A DNA stretch of 44,842 nt, taken from NCBI GenBank assembly GCA_017462965.1, contig JAFTQC010000072.1:1-44842 (forward strand), written 5' to 3'. Shown here piece after piece: positions 8,563 to 36,790 of this stretch. Positions within the stretch are counted from its first letter, which is position 1; every line of letters starts with the position of its first letter. The position numbers and the translations under genes were made by a program. Under the pieces are notes generated by a model. The model was not told the origin of the DNA and did not search any database. It was given only the letters and a program-made list of their open reading frames with translations. This DNA comes from Clostridia bacterium. GTDB taxonomy: Bacteria > Bacillota > Clostridia > TANB77 > UBA1234.

Positions 8563-9613
8563 TTCAATGGGAATGGGTGGAATAGAAAACTTTATAATGA
8601 ATGCATATGGAAGTTTAGATAAGGAAAAATATCAATTTGATTTCATATTACAAAACGAAGAAGAGAGTTTTTTTGAAAAAGAGATAAAAGAGCTTGGGGG
8701 CAATATATATATAATTCCTAGAATTGAAAAACATCCAGTAAAACATATTTTTGAATTAAGGAAAATATTAAAAAACAATTCATATATAGCTTTTCACAGG
8801 CATACAGCAAATAGTATTGTTTTTATAGATTTGATGATTGCTAAATTATCTCATATAAAAAATATAATAGTACATTCGCATAGTACTTCACATTCTAAAG
8901 AATGGCTCAATAAATTGTTTAGACCATTGTTATATGCTTTTTCAAACAGTCATTTGGCGTGTGGTGATGCTGCAGGGAAATGGCTGTATGGTGCCAGAAA
9001 TTTTGAAGTGATATATAACGGAATGCCAGTTGCTAAATATGCATATAGAGAAGAAAAAAGAAATGAAATGAGAGAAAAATTAGGATTTAACTCTGGAGAT
9101 ATAGTTCTTGGGCATGTTGGTAGATTTGATGAGGCAAAAAATCAAAGATTTATAATCGAGATGTTTAAAGAATTAAATAAATTAGACAAAAAATATAAAT
9201 TACTTTTATGTGGAGATGGACAGTTACGCGGTGAACTAACTTTGTATTGTAAGGAAAATGGATTGGATAATAGTGTGTCATTTTTAGGAGTAAGAAAAGA
9301 TGTAAATGACGTATTACAAGCTATGGACGCATTTTTATTCCCTTCTAAATATGAAGGATTGCCATTGTCACTTATCGAAGCTCAATTAACAGCACTACCT
9401 TGTTTTGTCTCAAAGAACATTCCGGATGAAGCTTTATACAATAAGAACATGTTGAAACTTGGAATTGAAGATGCTGATAAAGAAGAGTGGTGCAAACATA
9501 TAATGGCGTTGCCGATAACGACAGAATTTAGATCATACATAAATGAAGATTTATATAATGATTATGAAATAAAAAATGTTACAAAAAAATTATGCGAAAT
9601 TTATGAAAGATGA
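8534..9613 (+). CDS. glycosyltransferase family 4 (GT-B fold)
   Basis: Retaining GT-B glycosyltransferase resembling EpsF-type exopolysaccharide enzymes; donor and acceptor unknown. The 359-residue protein opens with RIVHMLNSMGMGGIENFIMN, the typical GT4 first strand and glycine loop. The C-terminal donor domain has VLGHVGRFDEAKN, LLCGDG and the E-x7-E element EGLPLSLIE near residue 273. GTG 8534 is chosen because AAAGGA lies 9 bases upstream and the family start aligns there. The 29-base overlap with the DUF2207 frame is probably an artefact of the frameshift in that gene. No polysaccharide cluster surrounds it. Confidence 0.88.
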   Translation: MQKRIVHMLNSMGMGGIENFIMNAYGSLDKEKYQFDFILQNEEESFFEKEIKELGGNIYIIPRIEKHPVKHIFELRKILKNNSYIAFHRHTANSIVFIDLMIAKLSHIKNIIVHSHSTSHSKEWLNKLFRPLLYAFSNSHLACGDAAGKWLYGARNFEVIYNGMPVAKYAYREEKRNEMREKLGFNSGDIVLGHVGRFDEAKNQRFIIEMFKELNKLDKKYKLLLCGDGQLRGELTLYCKENGLDNSVSFLGVRKDVNDVLQAMDAFLFPSKYEGLPLSLIEAQLTALPCFVSKNIPDEALYNKNMLKLGIEDADKEEWCKHIMALPITTEFRSYINEDLYNDYEIKNVTKKLCEIYER

Positions 9614-9731: not shown

Positions 9732-11429
9732 ATGGTTAAGAAGTGGTTATATTCAAAGTTTGAAGATGATAAAGTTAAAAAAATAGCTGAAGAAAATAAT
9801 GTTTCTGAATTGCTTGCTAAAATATTGCTTTGTAGAGAGTTTGAATCTAAAGATACTATTGATGATTTTTTACATCCTAAAATTGATAATTTGTATGATC
9901 CTTTTTTATTAAATGACATGCAGATTGCCGTGGATACCATAATTGATTCGTGTAATAAAAAAGAAAAGATTACTATATACGGTGATTATGATGTTGATGG
10001 AATTACGAGTGTATCGGTGCTTAAAAAGTTTTTTGCTGATATGGGAGTGAATGCTGAGCATTATTTGCCGAGTAGGCTTGAAGAGGGATATGGTTTAAAT
10101 AATGATGCGTTGGACAAAATCGCAAGTAATGGTACGAAACTTTTGATAACGGTGGATTGTGGAATTTCTGCATATGAAGAGGTTGAATATGCTAAAAGGC
10201 TTGGGATGAAAGTTATTGTTACTGACCATCATGAGTGCCCTGAAAGATTACCTGATGCGCTTGCTGTTGTTGATGCCAAGAGACCTGATAGTACATATCC
10301 TTTTAATTCGCTTGCGGGAGTTGGTGTCACATTTAAGCTTATTCAAGCAATATCATATAAATTGAATTTTGATAGAAAAAGATATTTAAAATATATTGAT
10401 ATAGTTGCTCTTGGGACGATTGCCGATATTGTTCCTTTAGTTGATGAAAATAGAATAATTGTGAATTTTGGTTTAATTCTTATGAGACAAACTCGTAATA
10501 TTGGTTTACAGGCTCTTATAAGAGTTAGTGGTTATGAAACGGGGAAGGATTTAAGTTCTACAGCGATTTCGTTTGGTATTGCTCCAAGAATAAATGCGTC
10601 TGGACGAATGGGAAAGGCTGATTTGGCGCTTGAATTGCTACTTGAGAATAATCCTGAAAAAGCGTATAAGATGGCGCTAGAACTTAGTGATACGAATAAA
10701 GAAAGACAAGATGTCGAGAAAAATATAATAAATCAAGCTGTTGATATGATTGAAAAGGACAAGTTATATGAGAAAGATATAATTGTTTTGTATCATGAGA
10801 ATTGGCATCATGGTGTTATTGGTATTGTTGCTTCTAAAATAACAGAACTTTATTATAAGCCATCAATTTTGATATCACTTGAAAATGGCGTTGGCAAAGG
10901 ATCTGGCAGAAGTATTGAAGGTTTTGATTTGCATGATGCACTTTCTAAATGCACTGATTTACTTATGAAGTTTGGTGGTCATGAAATGGCTATCGGGCTT
11001 TCGATTGAAGAAGAAAAACTAGAAGCTTTTTCAAAGAAAGTTGAAGAAATTGCAAAAGAAAAAGGAACAAAGGATTTACAACCAACAGTTAAAATTGATG
11101 CAGAAGTTACTTCTGAAAATATATCGTATGAAACACTTAAAGAAATTGAACTTTTAAAACCATTTGGTGAAGGAAATCCACCGCCTGTTTTTGTATATAA
11201 AAATATAAAGGTAGATGGAGTAAGACTTTTATCAAATGAGAAACATTTGAAATTATCACTTAAAGATGGTGTGCATGTATATGATGCGATTGCTTTTAAT
11301 ATGGGAAATCAAAAATATAGTATCAAAATTGGTGATAAAGTAGATGTGCTTCATGCATTAGAAATAAATAGTTTTAATGGAATTGAAAAAATTCAGATGA
11401 ATGTAAAAGATTTGAAGAAAAGTTTGTAG
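9732..11429 (+). CDS. recJ: single-stranded-DNA-specific exonuclease RecJ
   Basis: 5'-3' exonuclease of the DHH phosphoesterase superfamily, acting in recombination and mismatch/base-excision repair. From ATG 9732 it has 565 residues. Visible are motif I (YGDYDVDGITSVSVL, near residue 82), VDCGIS, and the DHH motif TDHHECP near residue 163. Also visible are FGIAPRINASGRMGKADLALE, the DHHA1 signatures HHGVIGIVASK and KFGGHEMAIGLS, and a C-terminal OB-like segment (LLKPFGEGNPPPVF). Its length is that of the short RecJ form. An ATG at 9717 is in frame, but the GGGGGT ribosome site at 9722-9727 supports 9732. It lies 29 bases upstream of rel. Confidence 0.95.
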   Translation: MVKKWLYSKFEDDKVKKIAEENNVSELLAKILLCREFESKDTIDDFLHPKIDNLYDPFLLNDMQIAVDTIIDSCNKKEKITIYGDYDVDGITSVSVLKKFFADMGVNAEHYLPSRLEEGYGLNNDALDKIASNGTKLLITVDCGISAYEEVEYAKRLGMKVIVTDHHECPERLPDALAVVDAKRPDSTYPFNSLAGVGVTFKLIQAISYKLNFDRKRYLKYIDIVALGTIADIVPLVDENRIIVNFGLILMRQTRNIGLQALIRVSGYETGKDLSSTAISFGIAPRINASGRMGKADLALELLLENNPEKAYKMALELSDTNKERQDVEKNIINQAVDMIEKDKLYEKDIIVLYHENWHHGVIGIVASKITELYYKPSILISLENGVGKGSGRSIEGFDLHDALSKCTDLLMKFGGHEMAIGLSIEEEKLEAFSKKVEEIAKEKGTKDLQPTVKIDAEVTSENISYETLKEIELLKPFGEGNPPPVFVYKNIKVDGVRLLSNEKHLKLSLKDGVHVYDAIAFNMGNQKYSIKIGDKVDVLHALEINSFNGIEKIQMNVKDLKKSL

Positions 11430-14290: not shown

Positions 14291-14333
14291 ATTTGCACTT
14301 TTGGGATGTCCCTTAAAAGTGCAAATTCTTAAA
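14289..14333 (+). terminator. hairpin after the MBL-fold gene, GGGA/TCCC core
   Basis: A perfect 14-bp stem (14289-14302 with 14315-14328) starts inside the stop codon and encloses GGGATGTCCC. Only two T follow, then an A-rich stretch, so termination strength is uncertain. The core is REP-like. Confidence 0.7.
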
Positions 14334-14351
14334 AATTTAATATAAAAAAAC

Positions 14352-14380
14352 TTGCAAAAGAAAAACATATAGAATATAAT
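14352..14380 (+). promoter_or_regulatory. sigma-A promoter of tRNA-Leu
   Basis: TTGCAA (14352-14357), a 17-base spacer and a perfect TATAAT (14375-14380), 30 bases before the mature tRNA 5' end. Confidence 0.8.
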
Positions 14381-14410
14381 AAGCAAGTACTCGAAATTAG
14401 AGAGTTGCTT

Positions 14411-14493
14411 GCCCGAGTGGCGGAATTGGCAGACGCACACGACTCAAAATCGTGCGGGAAACCATGCGGGTTCAAGTCCCGCCTTGGGCACCA
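14411..14493 (+). tRNA. tRNA-Leu (anticodon CAA)
   Basis: A type II tRNA of 83 bases with encoded CCA. The acceptor stem GCCCGAG (14411-14417) pairs with CTTGGGC. The D arm is AGTGGCGGAATTGGCAGAC. The anticodon stem CACGA/TCGTG encloses the loop CTCAAAA with anticodon CAA (14445-14447). A variable arm and the T arm (GGTTCAAGTCC) follow. It reads UUG codons. It has its own promoter and terminator. Confidence 0.97.
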
Positions 14494-14497
14494 AAGA

Positions 14498-14528
14498 AGA
14501 TACTGTTTTAAACAGTATCTTTTTTTTG
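14498..14528 (+). terminator. rho-independent terminator of tRNA-Leu
   Basis: AGATACTG (14498-14505) pairs with CAGTATCT (14513-14520), followed by a run of at least eight T. Confidence 0.9.
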
Positions 14529-14579
14529 TAGTAAGAGGGGCGAAATATTGCGAAAATTGTAAAAATATGCAAATGAAGG

Positions 14580-14608
14580 TTGACATATTACATAAAATAT
14601 AATAAAAT
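14580..14608 (+). promoter_or_regulatory. strong sigma-A promoter of the first small orphan gene
   Basis: A perfect TTGACA (14580-14585), a 17-base spacer and TAAAAT (14603-14608). Transcription would start near 14615, leaving about 170 bases of leader before the gene at 14785. Confidence 0.72.
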
Positions 14609-14646
14609 ACCATTGTAAATTATGCAACTGAACAGGACCTTAGAAA

Positions 14647-14724
14647 ATGGAGGGGTTATATGTAAGTCGATTACTCATTCTCATGACATTCGTATTTGGG
14701 GTGAAAGCGGCAAAAACACACTAA
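14647..14724 (+). CDS. possible 25-residue hydrophobic leader peptide
   Basis: A short frame inside the 170-base leader: ATG 14647 with CAGGA nine bases upstream, stop TAA 14722-14724. The peptide has a hydrophobic middle (RLLILMTFVFGV) and a basic tail (KAAKTH). The same leader also has GGAGGGG six bases before ATG TAA (14660-14665), a start codon directly followed by a stop. Either could be a translated regulatory element, or chance. No homology is recognised. Confidence 0.25.
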   Translation: MEGLYVSRLLILMTFVFGVKAAKTH

Positions 14725-14784
14725 TGTCGAAACATATGTATTGGTTATGTCAAAAAGAAAAAATACAGAAAGGGGAAGCCAAAC

Positions 14785-15060
14785 ATGGAACACAGAAGTG
14801 GAGCAACTAAGATCCGCATTACCAAAATTGTGAGCGGTGTGAAACTGGTGGATGATCAGGCGCAGGAGAGTGTCTGTTCTTCCAAGAATCGGTGCATTCT
14901 CGGTTTCCTCGCCGAAGGACGTCAAGTTCTCATGAACGAGAATGAACTTGTTCGAAACTACGCAAACGGCGACGGTACACAGATTCGGCTCAATGCTATT
15001 GTGCCGGGAAGAATCTACACAGTATACACCCGTGGCTATGAATTGGCCACTGCTAACTGA
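14785..15060 (+). CDS. small orphan protein, GC-rich cassette gene 1
   Basis: Unrecognised 91-residue protein, probably cytosolic: no signal peptide and no membrane segment. The composition is balanced, with two Cys (ESVCSSKNRC) and a beta-rich look (TKIRITKIVSGVKLVDD, RIYTVYTRGYEL). It is a real gene by context: a strong promoter (14580-14608), an AAGGGG ribosome site before ATG 14785, and a terminator directly after the stop. Base and codon use (CTC, GTC, CGG, GGC, AAC) is clearly more GC-rich than the neighbouring housekeeping genes, which suggests acquisition from elsewhere. Three other small genes here share these traits (15255, 29702, 30397). Function unknown. Confidence 0.75.
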   Translation: MEHRSGATKIRITKIVSGVKLVDDQAQESVCSSKNRCILGFLAEGRQVLMNENELVRNYANGDGTQIRLNAIVPGRIYTVYTRGYELATAN

Positions 15061-15078
15061 TAACTTATAACTCTTTTG

Positions 15079-15108
15079 AAAGCGTCCAGGTCTGACTTGG
15101 ACGCTTTT
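15079..15108 (+). terminator. rho-independent terminator of orphan gene 1
   Basis: AAAGCGTCCA (15079-15088) pairs with TGGACGCTTT (15098-15107) across a short loop, followed by T. Confidence 0.88.
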
Positions 15109-15120
15109 AAATTGAAAATT

Positions 15121-15140
15121 GGAACGGTCCCTCTTGCTAG
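15121..15140. repeat. solo REP-like arm, GGAACGGTCCC type
   Basis: GGAACGGTCCCTCTTGCTAG has the TCCCTCTTGCTA end of the REP arms and the ACGGT core seen at 19026-19130. There is no matching second arm. Confidence 0.65.
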
Positions 15141-15156
15141 TTTTCTGTGTTTTTCC

Positions 15157-15185
15157 TTGACATTGCACTAAAATGAGCGTATAAT
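15157..15185 (+). promoter_or_regulatory. perfect-consensus sigma-A promoter of the second small orphan gene
   Basis: TTGACA (15157-15162), exactly 17 bases, TATAAT (15180-15185): a 12/12 consensus match. Transcription should start near 15192. Confidence 0.88.
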
Positions 15186-15254
15186 GTTTATTGCTTATGT
15201 AAACATGAGTTGTAGATGTACCATGCAAATCGAAATTTTGGAGGTAAAAAACAA

Positions 15255-15521
15255 ATGACGCAAAAAGTGAATTCTAAGCCGGTGTATGATCTTTATGACG
15301 TTGAGTTCCTTCTCCGCTTTAAAGGAGAGGACCGAACTTCTGGAGATCCGTATCATGGAAGCCGTGTTGTTGAGCTGGTGAAGCCTGAAGAACTTAAAAA
15401 GGCTGAACAGCTGCAAGAAGAACTCACGCAGACCCTGCGGAAGTATTTTGCGGGACTCAACGAATTTCCTGTCGAGATCGTTCTGGTCGAGCTTGTGAAA
15501 TTCGAGCGTAAGGACGCCTAA
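15255..15521 (+). CDS. small orphan protein, GC-rich cassette gene 2
   Basis: Unrecognised 88-residue cytosolic protein. It opens with MTQKVNSKPVYDLYDVEFLL. A helical middle (KPEELKKAEQLQEELTQTLRKYF) and a C-terminal strand (PVEIVLVELVKFERKDA) follow. ATG 15255 is chosen because GGAGGT (15240-15245) lies nine bases upstream; the longer frame from 15216 has no ribosome site. Codon use (CTC, CGC, GTC, CTG, GAG) is more GC-rich than its neighbours. It sits alone between a perfect promoter and a terminator whose loop contains the stop codon. Strong expression is predicted; function unknown. Confidence 0.8.
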   Translation: MTQKVNSKPVYDLYDVEFLLRFKGEDRTSGDPYHGSRVVELVKPEELKKAEQLQEELTQTLRKYFAGLNEFPVEIVLVELVKFERKDA

Positions 15522-15537
15522 CCAGCGTCCTTTTTTT
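15510..15537 (+). terminator. rho-independent terminator overlapping the stop codon of orphan gene 2
   Basis: AAGGACGC (15510-15517) pairs with GCGTCCTT (15525-15532). The 7-base loop holds the TAA stop (15519-15521). A run of T follows. Confidence 0.92.
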
Positions 15538-15593
15538 ATGTCTTTTTTTATGAAAAAGAGACGTAATTTTATATTTCATTTTTTAATAAAATA

Positions 15594-15622
15594 TTGATAT
15601 CGAGTAAAGAATAGTATAGAAT
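15594..15622 (+). promoter_or_regulatory. sigma-A promoter of gap
   Basis: TTGATA (15594-15599), a 17-base spacer and TAGAAT (15617-15622), 35 bases before the gap start. Confidence 0.68.
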
Positions 15623-15633
15623 AACCCTTGTAG

Positions 15634-16667
<1,034 letters not shown>

Positions 16668-16668
<1 letters not shown>

Positions 16669-27553: not shown

Positions 27554-28603
27554 ATGAAAAAGTTTGGAAAAATAATTAGTGTGATAAGCTGTATTTTTAT
27601 ATTGTTCACTTTGAGCGGATGTGAAGGATTTATTTACAATAATTCATCTAAAGAAGAGATTTTGGATAACTTCAAGACAGGTAAATATGAAGTGCAAAAT
27701 GAATCGAGTGAGCAAGTTCATAAAATTGAGTTTTATGGAGATAATGTTTTTTTAGTTGTATCTGGTGATATGGATTATGTTGGAACATATGATATAAATG
27801 AAAAAAATATAAGCTGTAAAGTTCAAAAGAAAAGTGGTACAACTTTTGCTACTGAAAATGTGGATTTTAATATAGAGCTTGTAAGGGTAGATAACAACGG
27901 AATTAAGTTTGATGATGCTTATGAAGGTACAGAAAACTTTTTGATGGAAAATGAAACGTATACATATTGTGGAGAATTTGAAAGTAGGCTAAAAGCTAGA
28001 AATATAATGCAAGAAGAAAATAATCATATAGTGAGTGTTTTCTACAACAATAGTAATATATGGGATTCTGGGGATTTTGAGAGCTTTTGCTTTGTAGATT
28101 TGAATGGTGATACAGAGAAAGAATTATTAGTTCAATATATGATAGATAAAGCTCCTACTACTTTTGTGTATGAATGCGATAGTAATAAAATTGAAAAAAT
28201 TAGTGAACTTGATTTAGATATTACTAGTCTATCAAAATATTCCGATTCAAATGGGAAAAAATTATTTGTAAATTCGTATGATACAGAAATTTCAGATACA
28301 GAAGAGTGTACGATTGTAAAAGAGTTGACATTTGGAAATAATAATTTTAATACAAAAGATGTATTTAGCGAGAAAAGAACGTTAACAAATGCGGCAGATA
28401 TAAATGGATATGAAGAATGGATTTTTGAATATTTTGTTGAAAATATAAGTACAAAGCAAGGCGACTATATAAATGCATATAAGAATTATTTTGATAAATT
28501 AACCAAAGAAGATTTGATTGTAAATCTTATAAATGTTGATGATTGGCGTAATGAAAACAAGGATAAGCGTTTAGAAAAATTGAATAATTCTTATGGTAAA
28601 TAA
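27554..28603 (+). CDS. putative lipoprotein, function unknown
   Basis: A 349-residue lipoprotein: basic start MKKFGK, hydrophobic core, lipobox FTLSGC (Cys near residue 24). The mature part has a first beta-rich domain (KYEVQNESSEQVHKIEFYGDNVFLVV, YVGTYDINEKNISCKVQ). A second region holds FCFVDLNGDTEKELLVQYM, an Asp/Asn calcium-loop-like pattern common in clostridial surface lipoproteins. ATG 27554 is used instead of GTG 27548 because AAGGAGGG overlaps the GTG. It is probably membrane-anchored and faces outward. No specific role can be assigned. Confidence 0.82.
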   Translation: MKKFGKIISVISCIFILFTLSGCEGFIYNNSSKEEILDNFKTGKYEVQNESSEQVHKIEFYGDNVFLVVSGDMDYVGTYDINEKNISCKVQKKSGTTFATENVDFNIELVRVDNNGIKFDDAYEGTENFLMENETYTYCGEFESRLKARNIMQEENNHIVSVFYNNSNIWDSGDFESFCFVDLNGDTEKELLVQYMIDKAPTTFVYECDSNKIEKISELDLDITSLSKYSDSNGKKLFVNSYDTEISDTEECTIVKELTFGNNNFNTKDVFSEKRTLTNAADINGYEEWIFEYFVENISTKQGDYINAYKNYFDKLTKEDLIVNLINVDDWRNENKDKRLEKLNNSYGK

Positions 28604-28669
28604 AATATTTTTAATTCAAGATTAACCAAATAACAAAAAATAAATATAATAAATGTATGGAGGTGTAAT

Positions 28670-29632
28670 GTGATTAACAGAATTATTGGAAATACACCAA
28701 TGATTAAGATTATTTATGAATATGACGGAATTGAAAAATATGTGTATGCAAAACTTGAATACTTTAATTTGACTGGTAGCATAAAGGATCGAGTTGCGTA
28801 TTATATTCTTGACAATGCGAAAAAAAGTGGAGAGCTTCAAGCAGGGATGCCTATTATAGAAGTGACAAGTGGAAATACTGGCATTTCGCTTGCGGCACTT
28901 GGACGATATTATAATCACCCTGTATATATTTTTATGCCAGATTGGGTTAGTAAAGAAAGAGTTAAATTGATTGGTGGATATGGTGCGGAAGTTATTTTAA
29001 TTAGCAAAGAAGAGGGTGGTTTTCTCAAATGTCTTGAAGAGTCCAGAAAATTAGCGTTGGAGAATGATGGATTTTTAGCGAATCAATTTGCTAGTAAATA
29101 TAATTTCTTGGCTCATTATGAAACAACTGCAGAAGAAATTTTAAGTCAGGTTAAAGAAGACTGCTATGGTTTTGTTTCTGGTGTCGGTACGGGTGGAACT
29201 TTGATGGGAGTCGGAAAAAGATTAAAGGAAATAAATCCAAACATGAAAGCTATAGCGATTGAACCTGATAAAATGCCAATGATTTCTGAAGGTAGAATTA
29301 TAGAAGAACATAAGATTGAGGGGATCGGAGATGATTTCGTTCCTGATTTGGTAAATAGAGAATTAATTGATGATATATTCTTGATTAATGATGATGATGC
29401 AGTTAACATGGCAAGAAAACTTTCAAAGGAACTAGGACTAGGAGTTGGAATTTCATCTGGAGCAAATTTGATAGGTTGTATCTTAGCACAAAATAAGCAT
29501 GATATACCTATGGTAACGGTATTTCCAGACGATAATAAGAAATATCTGTCAACAGATTTGTCAAGGCCAATCTGCGATGACGAAGCTTTTGTATCCAATA
29601 AAATTAAATTGAAAAGGTACGAAATTGTGTAA
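28670..29632 (+). CDS. cysK: PLP-dependent cysteine synthase family protein
   Basis: Fold-type II PLP enzyme, probably O-acetylserine sulfhydrylase (O-acetylserine plus sulfide to cysteine). The 320 residues show the PLP Lys39 in NLTGSIKDRVA, the substrate loop EVTSGNTGIS, the phosphate loop GVGTGGTLMGVG and SSGANL near the C-terminus. GTG 28670 is the start: GGAGGT lies five bases upstream and the overlapping ATG runs straight into TGA. A cystathionine beta-synthase-like role cannot be excluded. No cysE is adjacent, and a GC-rich cassette promoter begins 10 bases after the stop. A possible promoter TTAACC-17-TATAAT ends at 28650. Confidence 0.88.
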   Translation: MINRIIGNTPMIKIIYEYDGIEKYVYAKLEYFNLTGSIKDRVAYYILDNAKKSGELQAGMPIIEVTSGNTGISLAALGRYYNHPVYIFMPDWVSKERVKLIGGYGAEVILISKEEGGFLKCLEESRKLALENDGFLANQFASKYNFLAHYETTAEEILSQVKEDCYGFVSGVGTGGTLMGVGKRLKEINPNMKAIAIEPDKMPMISEGRIIEEHKIEGIGDDFVPDLVNRELIDDIFLINDDDAVNMARKLSKELGLGVGISSGANLIGCILAQNKHDIPMVTVFPDDNKKYLSTDLSRPICDDEAFVSNKIKLKRYEIV

Positions 29633-29641
29633 AAATTCAAG

Positions 29642-29670
29642 TTGCATTTTACATAATGACGTGATATAAT
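29642..29670 (+). promoter_or_regulatory. extended -10 promoter of the third orphan gene
   Basis: TTGCAT (29642-29647), a 17-base spacer and a perfect TATAAT (29665-29670), with TG at 29662-29663. It starts only 10 bases after the cysK stop. Confidence 0.82.
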
Positions 29671-29701
29671 TCTGTAAAAATTGCTAGAAAGGATGAATTT
29701 C

Positions 29702-30220
29702 GTGCTCACTAATGAAATTCACAGGTTGATTCGGAATTTGGTTGAAGCAACTGAGGAAAGTCAAATTGACCACGCGGAAGTAAAGGAGGCGCTTTCGAAG
29801 GCTTTTGAGTATTGCGATGGTGATACGGCACAAGTAAAAGACAAAATGCAAGATTTCAAAGAGCAAAACAGCGACGTTTTGCAAAAAATACGAGAGTTTG
29901 TAAGGAGCGAGTTGACGCCAATAACTTGGGGAAACTCGGTTAATGACACTCCAATCCTTCTCAGAAATACTGATTTCGAATTCGTTGTAACGGCTCTGTT
30001 CATTTACTATAAATTGATCAGAGAACAGTCGGTTGTCGACATAGAAAAATGGATGAATCTCGTCTGTATTGAGACGGAGACAGACCGGAAGAAGGCATAT
30101 TCGGTTATTCACACAAAGATGAAACGCTGCCTAGGTGTATATATGCATGTAGCATGGCAAAGTAAGCGTATCGACAAAATGATGGCACGATTCTATCAGA
30201 AACACATGAAAAAGTGGTAA
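29702..30220 (+). CDS. small orphan protein, GC-rich cassette gene 3
   Basis: Unrecognised soluble, mostly helical protein of 172 residues. It opens with MLTNEIHRLIRNLVEATEES. A middle charged helix region (TAQVKDKMQDFKEQNSDVLQ) follows, and the basic C-terminus has an amphipathic look (SKRIDKMMARFYQKHMKKW). GTG 29702 is chosen because AAAGGA (29688-29693) lies at the right distance; the ATG at 29693 overlaps that ribosome site. Base use is richer in G and C than in flanking cysK and the lipid operon. It has its own promoter and a strong terminator. The paired charged helices suggest protein or nucleic-acid binding, but this is only a guess. Confidence 0.75.
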   Translation: MLTNEIHRLIRNLVEATEESQIDHAEVKEALSKAFEYCDGDTAQVKDKMQDFKEQNSDVLQKIREFVRSELTPITWGNSVNDTPILLRNTDFEFVVTALFIYYKLIREQSVVDIEKWMNLVCIETETDRKKAYSVIHTKMKRCLGVYMHVAWQSKRIDKMMARFYQKHMKKW

Positions 30221-30235
30221 GATAAGGAAAAATTT

Positions 30236-30275
30236 AACCCCAGCTACGAAAGTCGTTGCTGGGGTTGATTTTTTA
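30236..30275. terminator. strong two-way terminator between convergent orphan genes
   Basis: AACCCCAGC (30236-30244) pairs with GCTGGGGTT (30258-30266), and an inner ACGA/TCGT stem extends it. T-rich DNA follows on the plus strand (30269-30275) and AAATTT flanks on the other side, so it can serve both strands. Confidence 0.9.
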
Positions 30276-30281
30276 TATTTA

Positions 30282-30380
30282 CTATTCATTCGGCTCGTAA
30301 AGTCTGAGTGTGCCGTCAGCATTGTACAAAGGCGAGAGTGTGATACCACCTCTGGAGTTATAGTAAATCAAGGCATACAT
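30282..30380 (-). CDS. possible 32-residue protein
   Basis: Short minus-strand frame after the 60-residue orphan gene, running to the shared terminator. It reads MYALIYYNSRGGITLSPLYN and then a short acidic end. The codons are as GC-balanced as in the gene upstream and the frame fills the space to the terminator exactly, which favours a real gene. Against it, AAGG lies too close to ATG 30380; a TTG nine bases further in would have better spacing. Function unknown. Confidence 0.4.
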   Translation of the reverse strand: MYALIYYNSRGGITLSPLYNADGTLRLYEPNE

Positions 30381-30396
30381 TACCTTGGTTTCTCAC

Positions 30397-30579
30397 TTAA
30401 GATTCCTCCTTTTTATCGTCATCCTTAATTTTCAGTTCGACACCGAAGTCTATACCAGTGACACTAACGAGCTCTCCGGTGAATTCAATCCGCTCACCAG
30501 ACAAAAGGTCGAGTACGTAGCGTCCATCTTCACGTACGCTAGTTCTTTTGATACCTGTACCTAAGATTCTTAATACCAT
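30397..30579 (-). CDS. small orphan protein, GC-rich cassette gene 4
   Basis: Unrecognised 60-residue protein, beta-rich in look: MVLRILGTGIKRTSVREDGR, then LDLLSGERIEFTGELVSV, ending in a Lys/Asp/Glu tail (KIKDDDKKEES). A small barrel or SH3/OB-like fold is conceivable. ATG 30579 (minus strand) has AGGAGG about seven bases upstream; the longer frame from 30624 has none. Its own extended -10 promoter lies at 30615-30643. GC-balanced codons contrast with the AT-rich operon next door. Confidence 0.72.
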   Translation of the reverse strand: MVLRILGTGIKRTSVREDGRYVLDLLSGERIEFTGELVSVTGIDFGVELKIKDDDKKEES

Positions 30580-30614
30580 AAAAATCCTCCTTATAAGAGT
30601 ATTATTTTGCCTGC

Positions 30615-30643
30615 ATTCTATCACAAATAATAGAGCGATTCAA
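30615..30643 (-). promoter_or_regulatory. extended -10 promoter of the fourth orphan gene
   Basis: On the minus strand TTGAAT (30643-30638), a 17-base spacer and TAGAAT (30620-30615), with TG one base before the -10 box. Confidence 0.68.
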
Positions 30644-30697
30644 TATGTTGAAGAACATCGTGGATGAACTTTTGCGGTTTGAAGGTATGTTTTGGAT

Positions 30698-30726
30698 TTG
30701 TATATGGTGTCGAAATATGCTAATAT
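30698..30726 (+). promoter_or_regulatory. extended -10 promoter of the lipid operon
   Basis: TTGTAT (30698-30703), a 17-base spacer and TAATAT (30721-30726), with TG at 30718-30719. It lies 37 bases before the first gene of the operon (30763). Confidence 0.65.
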
Positions 30727-30762
30727 AAATTGTAGAAATAGGTCTGTTTTTGAGGAGATTTT

Positions 30763-34790: not shown

Positions 34791-36790
34791 TGCTTGGAAC
34801 TAAAATTGAAAATCTAAAAAAATTAAAGGAAAACAATATTAATATTCCAAACTTTGTTGTGGTAACTCATGAAGACATCGTAAAAGGAAACTTTGAGATA
34901 AATTTGCAGAGTGATTTATATTCAGTTCGTTCGTCAGCTAATATAGAAGATTCAGATGATAGTAGTTTCGCAGGTCTGTTTGATACATTTTTAAACGTGA
35001 AGAAAATTGAACTAAAAGAAAAAATAGAACTTTGTTTAAAATCGTTATATAACGAAAGTGTTTTAGAATACATAAAAAGAAACAATCTTAAAACTGAAAC
35101 TTTGAAAATGAATGTAATTGTTCAAGAAATGATATGTGCAGATTATTCAGGAATTTTATTCACATCAAATCCTCAAGGGATTTTAAACGAAAGTGTTATT
35201 GTAGTAGGAAAAGGTGTTGGTGAAAACGTAGTGCAAGACAAAGTAGATACTACTACATACTATTATAATTTAACAGACAAAGTTTATTATTATGAAGGTA
35301 AGACAGAATATTTAAATAATGAGAAAATAGAAGAACTTATAGAAATGGCTTCAAAAATTAAAGCAATTTTGGGAGACTTTTTAGATATCGAATTTGCAGT
35401 TAAAGATAATATAATATACATTCTTCAGGCAAGAAAAATAACTACGATAAATGATAGTAGTCCATTGATTTTAGATAATAGTAATATTGTAGAAAGTTAT
35501 CCAGGGATAAGCCTTCCACTAACGTGTTCATTTGTGAACAGTGTGTATGGAGGAATATTTAGAAGTGTAAGCAAGAGAGTATTAAAAAATAAAAAAGTGC
35601 TTAATAAATATGATCATGTGTTTTCTAATATGGTTGGAAATGCAAATGGAAGATTATATTACAAAATAAGTAATTGGTATACGGTGATTAAATTTTTACC
35701 ACTTAATAAAAAGATTATTCCTGTGTGGCAGGAAATGCTTGGTGTAAAAAACAAAATATATGATAAAGAAAAAGTGAATATTCCTGTAATTACAAGAATG
35801 ATGACATATTTCAATTCGGTGTATGAAATATTAAATGCTAGTAAAAATATGAAAAAGTTAAATGAAGAATTTACGCAGGTAAATAATTACTTTTACTCGA
35901 ACTTCAATAATAATATGTCTTCAAAAGAAATTTTAAAACTATATAACGAGGTTGAAAATAGACTTTTAAGCGATTGGGATATAACGCTTTATAATGATAT
36001 GTCTTCATTTATATTCACGGGTTTATTAAAACATAATTTGAAAAAGAAATATAAAAATTATGAAGAAGTTGCGAATAATTATATCTCTGGGATTTCTAAT
36101 ATAGAAAGTATAAAACCTATTAAAGCTTTGATTAATTTATCATATCAAAAAGACAAAATATCTAAGGAAGAATTCAAAGATAAGTTTAATGATTATATAA
36201 GAGATTATGGTGATAGAAGTTTAGAAGAATTAAAAATGGAAAGTGAAACATTTAGAACTAATCCTGAGTTACTAATAAATAAGATAAATGAATATACGAA
36301 TGATAGGAAAAAGCTAGAAGAATTATATAAAAATATAAACAAAACTAAATTTGATAATATTGAAAATGAAAACTTTTTAACTAAATTTTATATAAAAAAG
36401 TGCATGCATGGAATAAAAAATAGAGAAATATCAAGACTTAACAGAAGTAGAATTTTTGGTATGGTAAGAGAAATGATTTTAGCTATTGGAAATAACTTTG
36501 AAAAAGAAAATATTATATCAAACCAAAAAGATATTTTCTATTTAACATTAGATGAAATATTTGAATCTGTTGAAAAGCCAAGTGATTTAAGACAAATTAT
36601 AAAGTGTAGGAAAGAAGAATACGAAATTTATAAATTATTGCCTACATATTCAAGAATTATATTTGAAAAAAATGAATTTAACAAAATACATAAATCAATA
36701 AATTCTAAAAAAATATATTTGTCAAAAAATAAAATAACAGGTGTTCCATGTTCTTCGCGGAGTTGTGGAAGGAGAAGCTTTAGTTATTGA
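34787..36790 (+). CDS. second dikinase-like protein, N-terminal part (frameshifted)
   Basis: Paralogue of the 31371 protein. It reads 667 residues, then runs out of frame and stops. The ATP-grasp domain has YSVRSSANIEDS, SFAGLFDTFLNVK, VIVQEMICADYSG and FLDIEFAVKDNIIYILQARKIT. The helical variable region follows. The normal frame ends near TGVPCSS (36737-36754), where a single extra T among 36751-36755 shifts the frame and gives SRSCGRRSFSY before the stop. The swivel domain continues in the next frame (36756-37061). The combined protein would be about 757 residues. ATG 34787 overlaps the UbiA stop. Either a recent mutation, an assembly error or a +1 frameshift site. Confidence 0.8.
   Translation: MMLGTKIENLKKLKENNINIPNFVVVTHEDIVKGNFEINLQSDLYSVRSSANIEDSDDSSFAGLFDTFLNVKKIELKEKIELCLKSLYNESVLEYIKRNNLKTETLKMNVIVQEMICADYSGILFTSNPQGILNESVIVVGKGVGENVVQDKVDTTTYYYNLTDKVYYYEGKTEYLNNEKIEELIEMASKIKAILGDFLDIEFAVKDNIIYILQARKITTINDSSPLILDNSNIVESYPGISLPLTCSFVNSVYGGIFRSVSKRVLKNKKVLNKYDHVFSNMVGNANGRLYYKISNWYTVIKFLPLNKKIIPVWQEMLGVKNKIYDKEKVNIPVITRMMTYFNSVYEILNASKNMKKLNEEFTQVNNYFYSNFNNNMSSKEILKLYNEVENRLLSDWDITLYNDMSSFIFTGLLKHNLKKKYKNYEEVANNYISGISNIESIKPIKALINLSYQKDKISKEEFKDKFNDYIRDYGDRSLEELKMESETFRTNPELLINKINEYTNDRKKLEELYKNINKTKFDNIENENFLTKFYIKKCMHGIKNREISRLNRSRIFGMVREMILAIGNNFEKENIISNQKDIFYLTLDEIFESVEKPSDLRQIIKCRKEEYEIYKLLPTYSRIIFEKNEFNKIHKSINSKKIYLSKNKITGVPCSSRSCGRRSFSY

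Follow-up and report, generated by a model that had tools for sequence, protein, structure and literature searches.

Two GC-rich orphan genes between tRNA-Leu and gap as candidate long-term residents of a class of autonomous small genes in AT-rich Clostridia

Are small genes of atypical composition, set between housekeeping genes and furnished with their own promoters and terminators, recent arrivals, or may they be residents of long standing? Unusual base composition is a widely used signature of recent gene import, and the question is raised by two orphan genes, here called A and B, between tRNA-Leu and gap in a stretch of 44,842 nucleotides (the window). The window is contig C61 of a metagenome-assembled genome, G000 (2.07 Mb, 76 contigs); we know of no cultured member of the host bacteria. 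The GC content of G000 is 32.6% (527 kb sampled), and the median GC3 of its ORFs of at least 150 aa is 0.22. The comparison within the genus covers six members (G000–G005). The closest relative of G000 among the genomes compared is G005, a bin labelled "uncultured Eubacteriales bacterium"; between G000 and G003, core proteins are about 76% identical and core fourfold sites are near saturation.

All features of the locus lie on the forward strand. The tRNA-Leu (CAA) gene, identified by ARAGORN and by DNA search, occupies positions 14411–14493 and is followed by the promoter of gene A at 14580–14608 (TTGACA-17-TAAAAT, 11/12 matches to the consensus; TTGACA-17-TAGAAT in G005). Gene A (14785–15060) encodes 91 aa with GC 0.49 and GC3 0.51, and its terminator at 15075–15111, found by an inverted-repeat scan, has 18-nt arms that are 89% complementary, followed by TTTT. 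The promoter of gene B at 15157–15185 is a perfect TTGACA-17-TATAAT (12/12; TTGACT-17-TATAAT in G005); gene B (15255–15521) encodes 88 aa with GC 0.48 and GC3 0.50, and its terminator spans 15510–15532. The two promoters, both of the sigma-A consensus type, are the best two among six promoter-like sites in 14300–15700, an interval that yields 3.5 such sites in shuffles. The gap gene (glyceraldehyde-3-phosphate dehydrogenase, assigned by Pfam and synteny) follows at 15658–16668.

The first-pass annotation of this stretch had described A and B as self-contained units with near-perfect or perfect promoters, strong ribosome sites, compact terminators and a codon usage foreign to the surroundings, and most of that description is borne out, including the contrast in composition (genome GC 0.326). 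Gene B indeed has a strong ribosome site, GGAGG at 15240–15244, 11 nt upstream of the gene, read from the sequence and conserved in G005; for gene A the word is generous, since it is preceded by AAGGGG only. The leader of A also contains, at 14649–14665, the element GGAGGGGTTATATGTAA, read from the sequence and kept in G005, in which a ribosome site is followed by ATGTAA, that is, a start codon immediately 5' of a stop codon; this start–stop element is possibly regulatory. Gene A is 95% and gene B 85% identical in G005, with mostly synonymous changes, by which both are evidently real genes.

The pair is present in four of the six genus members (G000, G003, G004, and G005), with tRNA-Leu as the conserved left neighbour in all four and gap as the right neighbour in three. 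In G005, order and place between tRNA-Leu and gap are kept. In G003, A (34% identity) and B (46%) keep the place, behind one consensus promoter; the two genes travel together, in this genome as one promoter-operon, and the earlier term "single-gene" is not strictly right for them. In G004, A (24%) and B (38%, both from alignment) lie between a divergent tRNA-Leu gene and pgk, 5' of the tRNA. Neither A nor B was found in G001 and G002, which belong to the same genus and keep gap; the neighbourhoods are rearranged in both, hence the locus has no clean empty site. Homologues with the same codon bias at a conserved locus, proposed beforehand as the sign of vertical descent across the clade, are largely what is seen, in four of six genus members rather than in the whole clade.

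Two other features of these intervals were noted. In G003, an extended, imperfect inverted repeat, ACGGAGTTTTTGTC ... GACAAAAACTCCGT, which resembles a MITE and is absent from the window, lies between tRNA-Leu and A–B (contig C17, around 8760–8865; L010). In another genus, the tRNA-Leu/pgk interval of G007 (contig C12, near 34800–35800; L111:2803-3795) holds a different GC-rich orphan of 330 aa.

Could the locus be a product of binning or assembly? The source genome, assembled from a metagenome into 76 contigs, has 4.67% contamination, and another contig of G000, C73, repeats window positions 28202–30740 exactly. A–B and its flanks recur, however, in three other independently binned genomes, which already refutes an artefact for the pair, and the chance of one is negligible. 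The C73 copy is cut off at 30740 and most likely reflects overlapping assembly or strain variation, not a second genomic copy; as an exact overlap, it was not taken for a further copy of the locus.

The terminator of B has an unusual design: its 5' arm consists of the last codons of the gene, and the stop codon lies in the loop. The same design is found in all four genomes with the pair, in differing sequences (AAGGACGCC-TAA, AGGATTACC-TGA, and GGAGTGCC-TGA), so the hairpin has persisted through joint change of the C-terminus and the RNA. By the same simple hairpin rule, used throughout for these counts, one of 70 host terminators starts within coding sequence. The stop codon in the loop, and the fact that A–B is always 5' of gap or pgk, would suit a regulatory or toxin–antitoxin-like pair tied to the glycolysis genes, e.g., one whose translation-tuned B terminator controls transcription into gap. 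However, gap has a promoter-like site of its own at 15594–15622, G001 and G002 keep gap without the pair, and no toxin, antitoxin, or defence family is matched in libraries of described families; the odds of such a tie are slim.

Searches beyond the genus support the orphan status claimed for both genes. No relative of B outside the genus is found, by close or profile searches, in 385 genomes of the order, 391 of the class, and 398 of the phylum; weak partial matches were set aside. The sole relative of A beyond the genus is remote, an isolated 154-aa gene with GC3 0.56 in G226, from another family of the order; it has a TTGATT-17-TATAAT promoter and a strong terminator, and the adjoining host gene has GC3 0.10. 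Other weak matches to A in the order were judged to be due to chance, most of them falling within long reading frames. Close and profile searches of phages, plasmids, and viral contigs give no match to A–B, and those of genome contigs return for B members of the genus alone. In Pfam, PHROGs, NCBIfam, and PADLOC, libraries of described families only, nothing credible is matched by A, B, or the two genes of a second locus considered below; matches to UBR4 and Cas11a were below the cut-off or weak and were ignored. The predicted structures are all-beta for A (mean pLDDT 78) and beta-beta-alpha-beta for B (mean pLDDT 77.7), and fold searches give no significant match for either (best Z 2.6 for A and 5.4 for B; best BFVD match of B, E 0.007). 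The likeness of the B fold to ribosomal LX/L20a and PurS-like proteins is within the range of common arrangements. Two of the six genus members, and every genome searched outside the genus, lack the pair, so its old residence is read from few genomes.

The first-pass annotation had also seen the same pattern at 29642–30643. This second locus is likewise GC-rich, but its promoters are not near-perfect. A 172-aa orphan (29702–30220, forward strand; GC3 0.47) has, as read from the sequence, a TTGCAT-17-TATAAT promoter with an extended −10 element, and a terminator hairpin at 30236–30266 on the same strand. A 60-aa orphan on the reverse strand (30397–30579; GC3 0.40) has a TTGAAT-17-TAGAAT promoter (9/12). 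The latter gene is 88% identical and at the same place in the sister species G005; of the former, that species alone has a short remnant (G005:C35:45187-45394) beside the intact 60-aa neighbour, which looks like one cassette being lost.

To what extent such units form a class was assessed in a survey covering three species of the genus and 1.39 Mb, which collected ORFs of raised GC that have a good ribosome site and lie in gaps separating host-type genes; promoters were not used as a selection criterion. The survey gives 54 ORFs, or 51 once three evident artefacts are removed. A promoter with at least 11/12 matches lies within 120 nt upstream of 18 of the 51 cassettes, compared with 14 of 283 native genes that have a ribosome site and sufficient upstream space (P = 1.1e-8); without the G005 copies of shared cassettes the count is 16 of 46 (P = 6e-8). 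A terminator lies within 90 nt of 19 of the 54 cassettes and 70 of 803 host genes (P = 3e-7). The existence of a class of self-contained cassettes, suggested earlier from the two loci of the window, is upheld by these counts. For the 34 cassettes with promoters of at least 10/12, GC is 0.446 in the ORF, 0.20 in the promoter, 0.28 in the leader, and about 0.30 just beyond, where only the terminator raises it in part; it is the ORFs alone that are GC-rich. The boundaries of these 34 cassettes share no common 9-mer except AT-rich words. The literature searched, largely open-access, does not describe a class of such genes.

One cassette occurs roughly every 15 kb in the part of G005 that was sampled, every 31 kb in G000, and every 73 kb in G003. 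Two other families of the order have similar units (G226, 160 kb scanned; G016, 100 kb scanned); 68 kb of G014 contain no such cassette. Some cassettes match AAA-CYTH, ClpX-like, phosphorylase, or phosphoesterase families, and two enzyme-like ones have wider homologues in large phages at about 29–37% identity, too low for a donor to be named; Patescibacteria were also considered as a source. A 128-aa cassette of G000 (L113:1299-1685, minus strand) matches the phage family phrog_4074 (E 5.5e-20); its relatives occur in phages of very different kinds and in 78 viral contigs. In G005, tandem pairs of related cassette genes (C28:322003-322948 and 387735-388408) suggest that members of the class have duplicated locally.

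tRNA genes are common integration sites. The tRNA-Leu neighbour, as well as the phrog_4074 match of one class member, could be taken to mean that A and B are what is left of a single large prophage or conjugative element formerly at this tRNA. Yet no structural, integrase, or relaxase family is among the matches of the scanned genes, the cassettes are scattered singly at the above densities, and in G004 the pair lies 5' of the tRNA gene; such an origin is very unlikely. As an integration site, tRNA-Leu was rejected: besides the position of the pair in G004, no downstream copy of the tRNA end was found. The interval 14380–15660 contains no att-like or terminal repeats, just the terminator hairpins and short chance repeats.

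The age of the cassettes can be estimated from seven of them that G000 and G005 share in corresponding positions, namely A, B, the 60-aa gene, and four more. At fourfold sites they diverge by 0.665, compared with 0.543 for 56 core genes, and their transversion divergence is 0.251 compared with 0.232; individually, A has 0.69 and B 1.15 at fourfold sites, with 0.54–0.65 for the core. Since the fourfold divergence is not below that of core genes, the seven shared cassettes are at least as old as the split of the two species. Further cassette families keep corresponding positions between G000 and G003 or G005.

Other members of the class do turn over. A 201-aa gene (L071:12946-13551), upstream of what we take to be prfA, is absent from G005, where 37 bp correspond to 1010 bp in G000 with both flanks conserved; this is a near-clean empty site. 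The gap between two genes that are presumably tuf and plsX holds a short Cys-rich (zinc-ribbon-like) protein in G000, G005, and G003, and an unrelated 407-aa gene in G001, which is related to a cassette elsewhere in G005. On L071, which also holds the 201-aa gene, two inverted copies of an approximately 120-bp repeat (L071:9803-9927 and 10025-10146), which recurs on both strands in many places of G001, G002, and G005, are a candidate miniature inverted-repeat element.

This bears on the original proposal that A and B are recently acquired, still mobile single-gene cassettes. The contrast in GC and codon usage speaks for it, as do the near-clean empty site and the different genes at one site between species, both of which concern other cassettes. 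Against it are the presence of A–B at one address in four species with core-like divergence, and the lack of any att-like repeat or common boundary word in the searches described above. "Recently gained" therefore fails for A–B, for which this reading is largely refuted; mobility or turnover, also evidenced by one family at unrelated sites, applies to some class members other than the pair, and recent acquisition is possible for the 201-aa cassette. For the locus as a whole we consider it improbable.

If the shared cassettes are old, their composition should have drifted toward that of the host. We applied a two-state model (G/C versus A/T) of third positions, fitted on core genes, with an equilibrium of 0.165 and a decay constant of 0.66 per lineage. 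With present cassette GC3 values of 0.572 and 0.520, neutral decay requires an ancestral GC3 of 0.91 (bootstrap 0.79–1.04), and the neutral prediction of G/C–A/T differences exceeds the observed one by 0.146 (0.083–0.211); these figures assume that cassettes mutate at core rates and that host GC3 is the neutral equilibrium, and the discrepancy shrinks if intergenic GC, about 0.29, is taken as the equilibrium. The G000–G003 comparison requires an impossible ancestral GC3 of 1.06, from 85 informative sites only. As GC3 has not decayed in the shared, dated cassettes, their GC-rich composition seems to be maintained or repeatedly re-imported, rather than being a relic of recent arrival.

Re-import would mean that positions are old while alleles are overwritten repeatedly from a GC-richer outside pool (phages, other Clostridia), keeping GC3 high without selection. 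Consistent with this, GC3 stays at 0.42–0.63 across G000, G003, and G004, and A and B are just 24–34% and 38–46% identical in those relatives, compared with about 76% for core proteins (G000–G003). On the other hand, no donor is found in the 391 class genomes, 398 phylum genomes, phages, plasmids, or viral contigs; the cassettes shared by G000 and G005 are not younger than core genes; and promoters and leaders are AT-rich and host-like. We regard repeated replacement as possible but doubtful. Maintenance can be put in a broader form: the cassettes would be autonomous orphan genes that form a large and long-established class in AT-rich gut Clostridia of the order, with GC-rich codon usage actively maintained against host mutation bias, so that atypical composition marks a functional class of residents and not a recent foreign origin. 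This we hold tentatively, at somewhat less than even odds. Possible maintaining forces are mRNA stability, translation in special states, and steady exchange with an unseen gene pool.

Among known systems, phage morons such as pid of P22 (PMC3573128) are the closest in kind. Morons are autonomous units at sites where relatives carry nothing or something else (PMC3573128); like them, the cassettes are small orphans with their own control and a Rho-independent terminator, inserted between genes adjacent in relatives, and for cassettes other than A–B the site is empty or filled differently in some relatives. A–B has its own promoter and factor-independent terminator, and its composition is unlike that of the flanks (GC3 0.50 versus 0.22). 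In contrast to morons, which reside in a phage or prophage genome, A–B lies between chromosomal housekeeping genes, and the class as a whole is chromosomal: each genome has dozens of units between its housekeeping operons, richer in GC than their surroundings, and several are long-term residents. Integron gene cassettes are also small single-gene units, often orphans, but the units here each have their own promoter and are dispersed, with no common boundary repeat or array seen. Horizontally acquired ORFans undergoing amelioration are similarly orphans of unusual composition, although the decay of GC3 toward the host expected for them is not observed in the shared, dated cassettes. The link to phage family phrog_4074 concerns one G000 cassette, while A and B match no PHROG.

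Our preferred reading, to which we assign a probability of roughly 0.6, is that A and B are autonomous members of this class with moron-like entry, long residence, fast protein evolution, and GC3 held by selection or exchange. They would be adjoining members of a class of small genes in gaps between housekeeping operons in an order of AT-rich Clostridia. Each is probably transcribed constitutively and strongly, to judge by the consensus matches, as a short insulated mRNA, and as such would neither depend on nor disturb tRNA-Leu and gap. The class may have entered genomes in moron fashion, with autonomous units inserting between operons and some of them, at least, coming from phages; useful members such as A–B would have been kept for long while their proteins evolved fast, and selection on the coding sequence would now keep their GC3 high, unless exchange restores it. 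The beta-rich A and the beta-beta-alpha-beta B might be small binding partners acting together in a fast-evolving conflict, e.g., phage defence or competition. This conflict role, the least supported part of the reading and held with low confidence, is a first guess from the constant pairing, small size, and fast change of the proteins and the phage kinship of a classmate.

For these bacteria, then, dozens of small orphans carry the import signature, yet the datable ones are as old as a species split and do not drift toward the host. What appears from the genomes compared, a chromosomal gene class that resembles morons, has strong promoters of its own and stays GC-rich, is more interesting than simple gene import. 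If confirmed, it would be a gene class with its own composition regime and with promoters among the strongest of the genome; it would provide a list of probably highly expressed proteins, and a warning for calls of horizontal transfer based on GC content.
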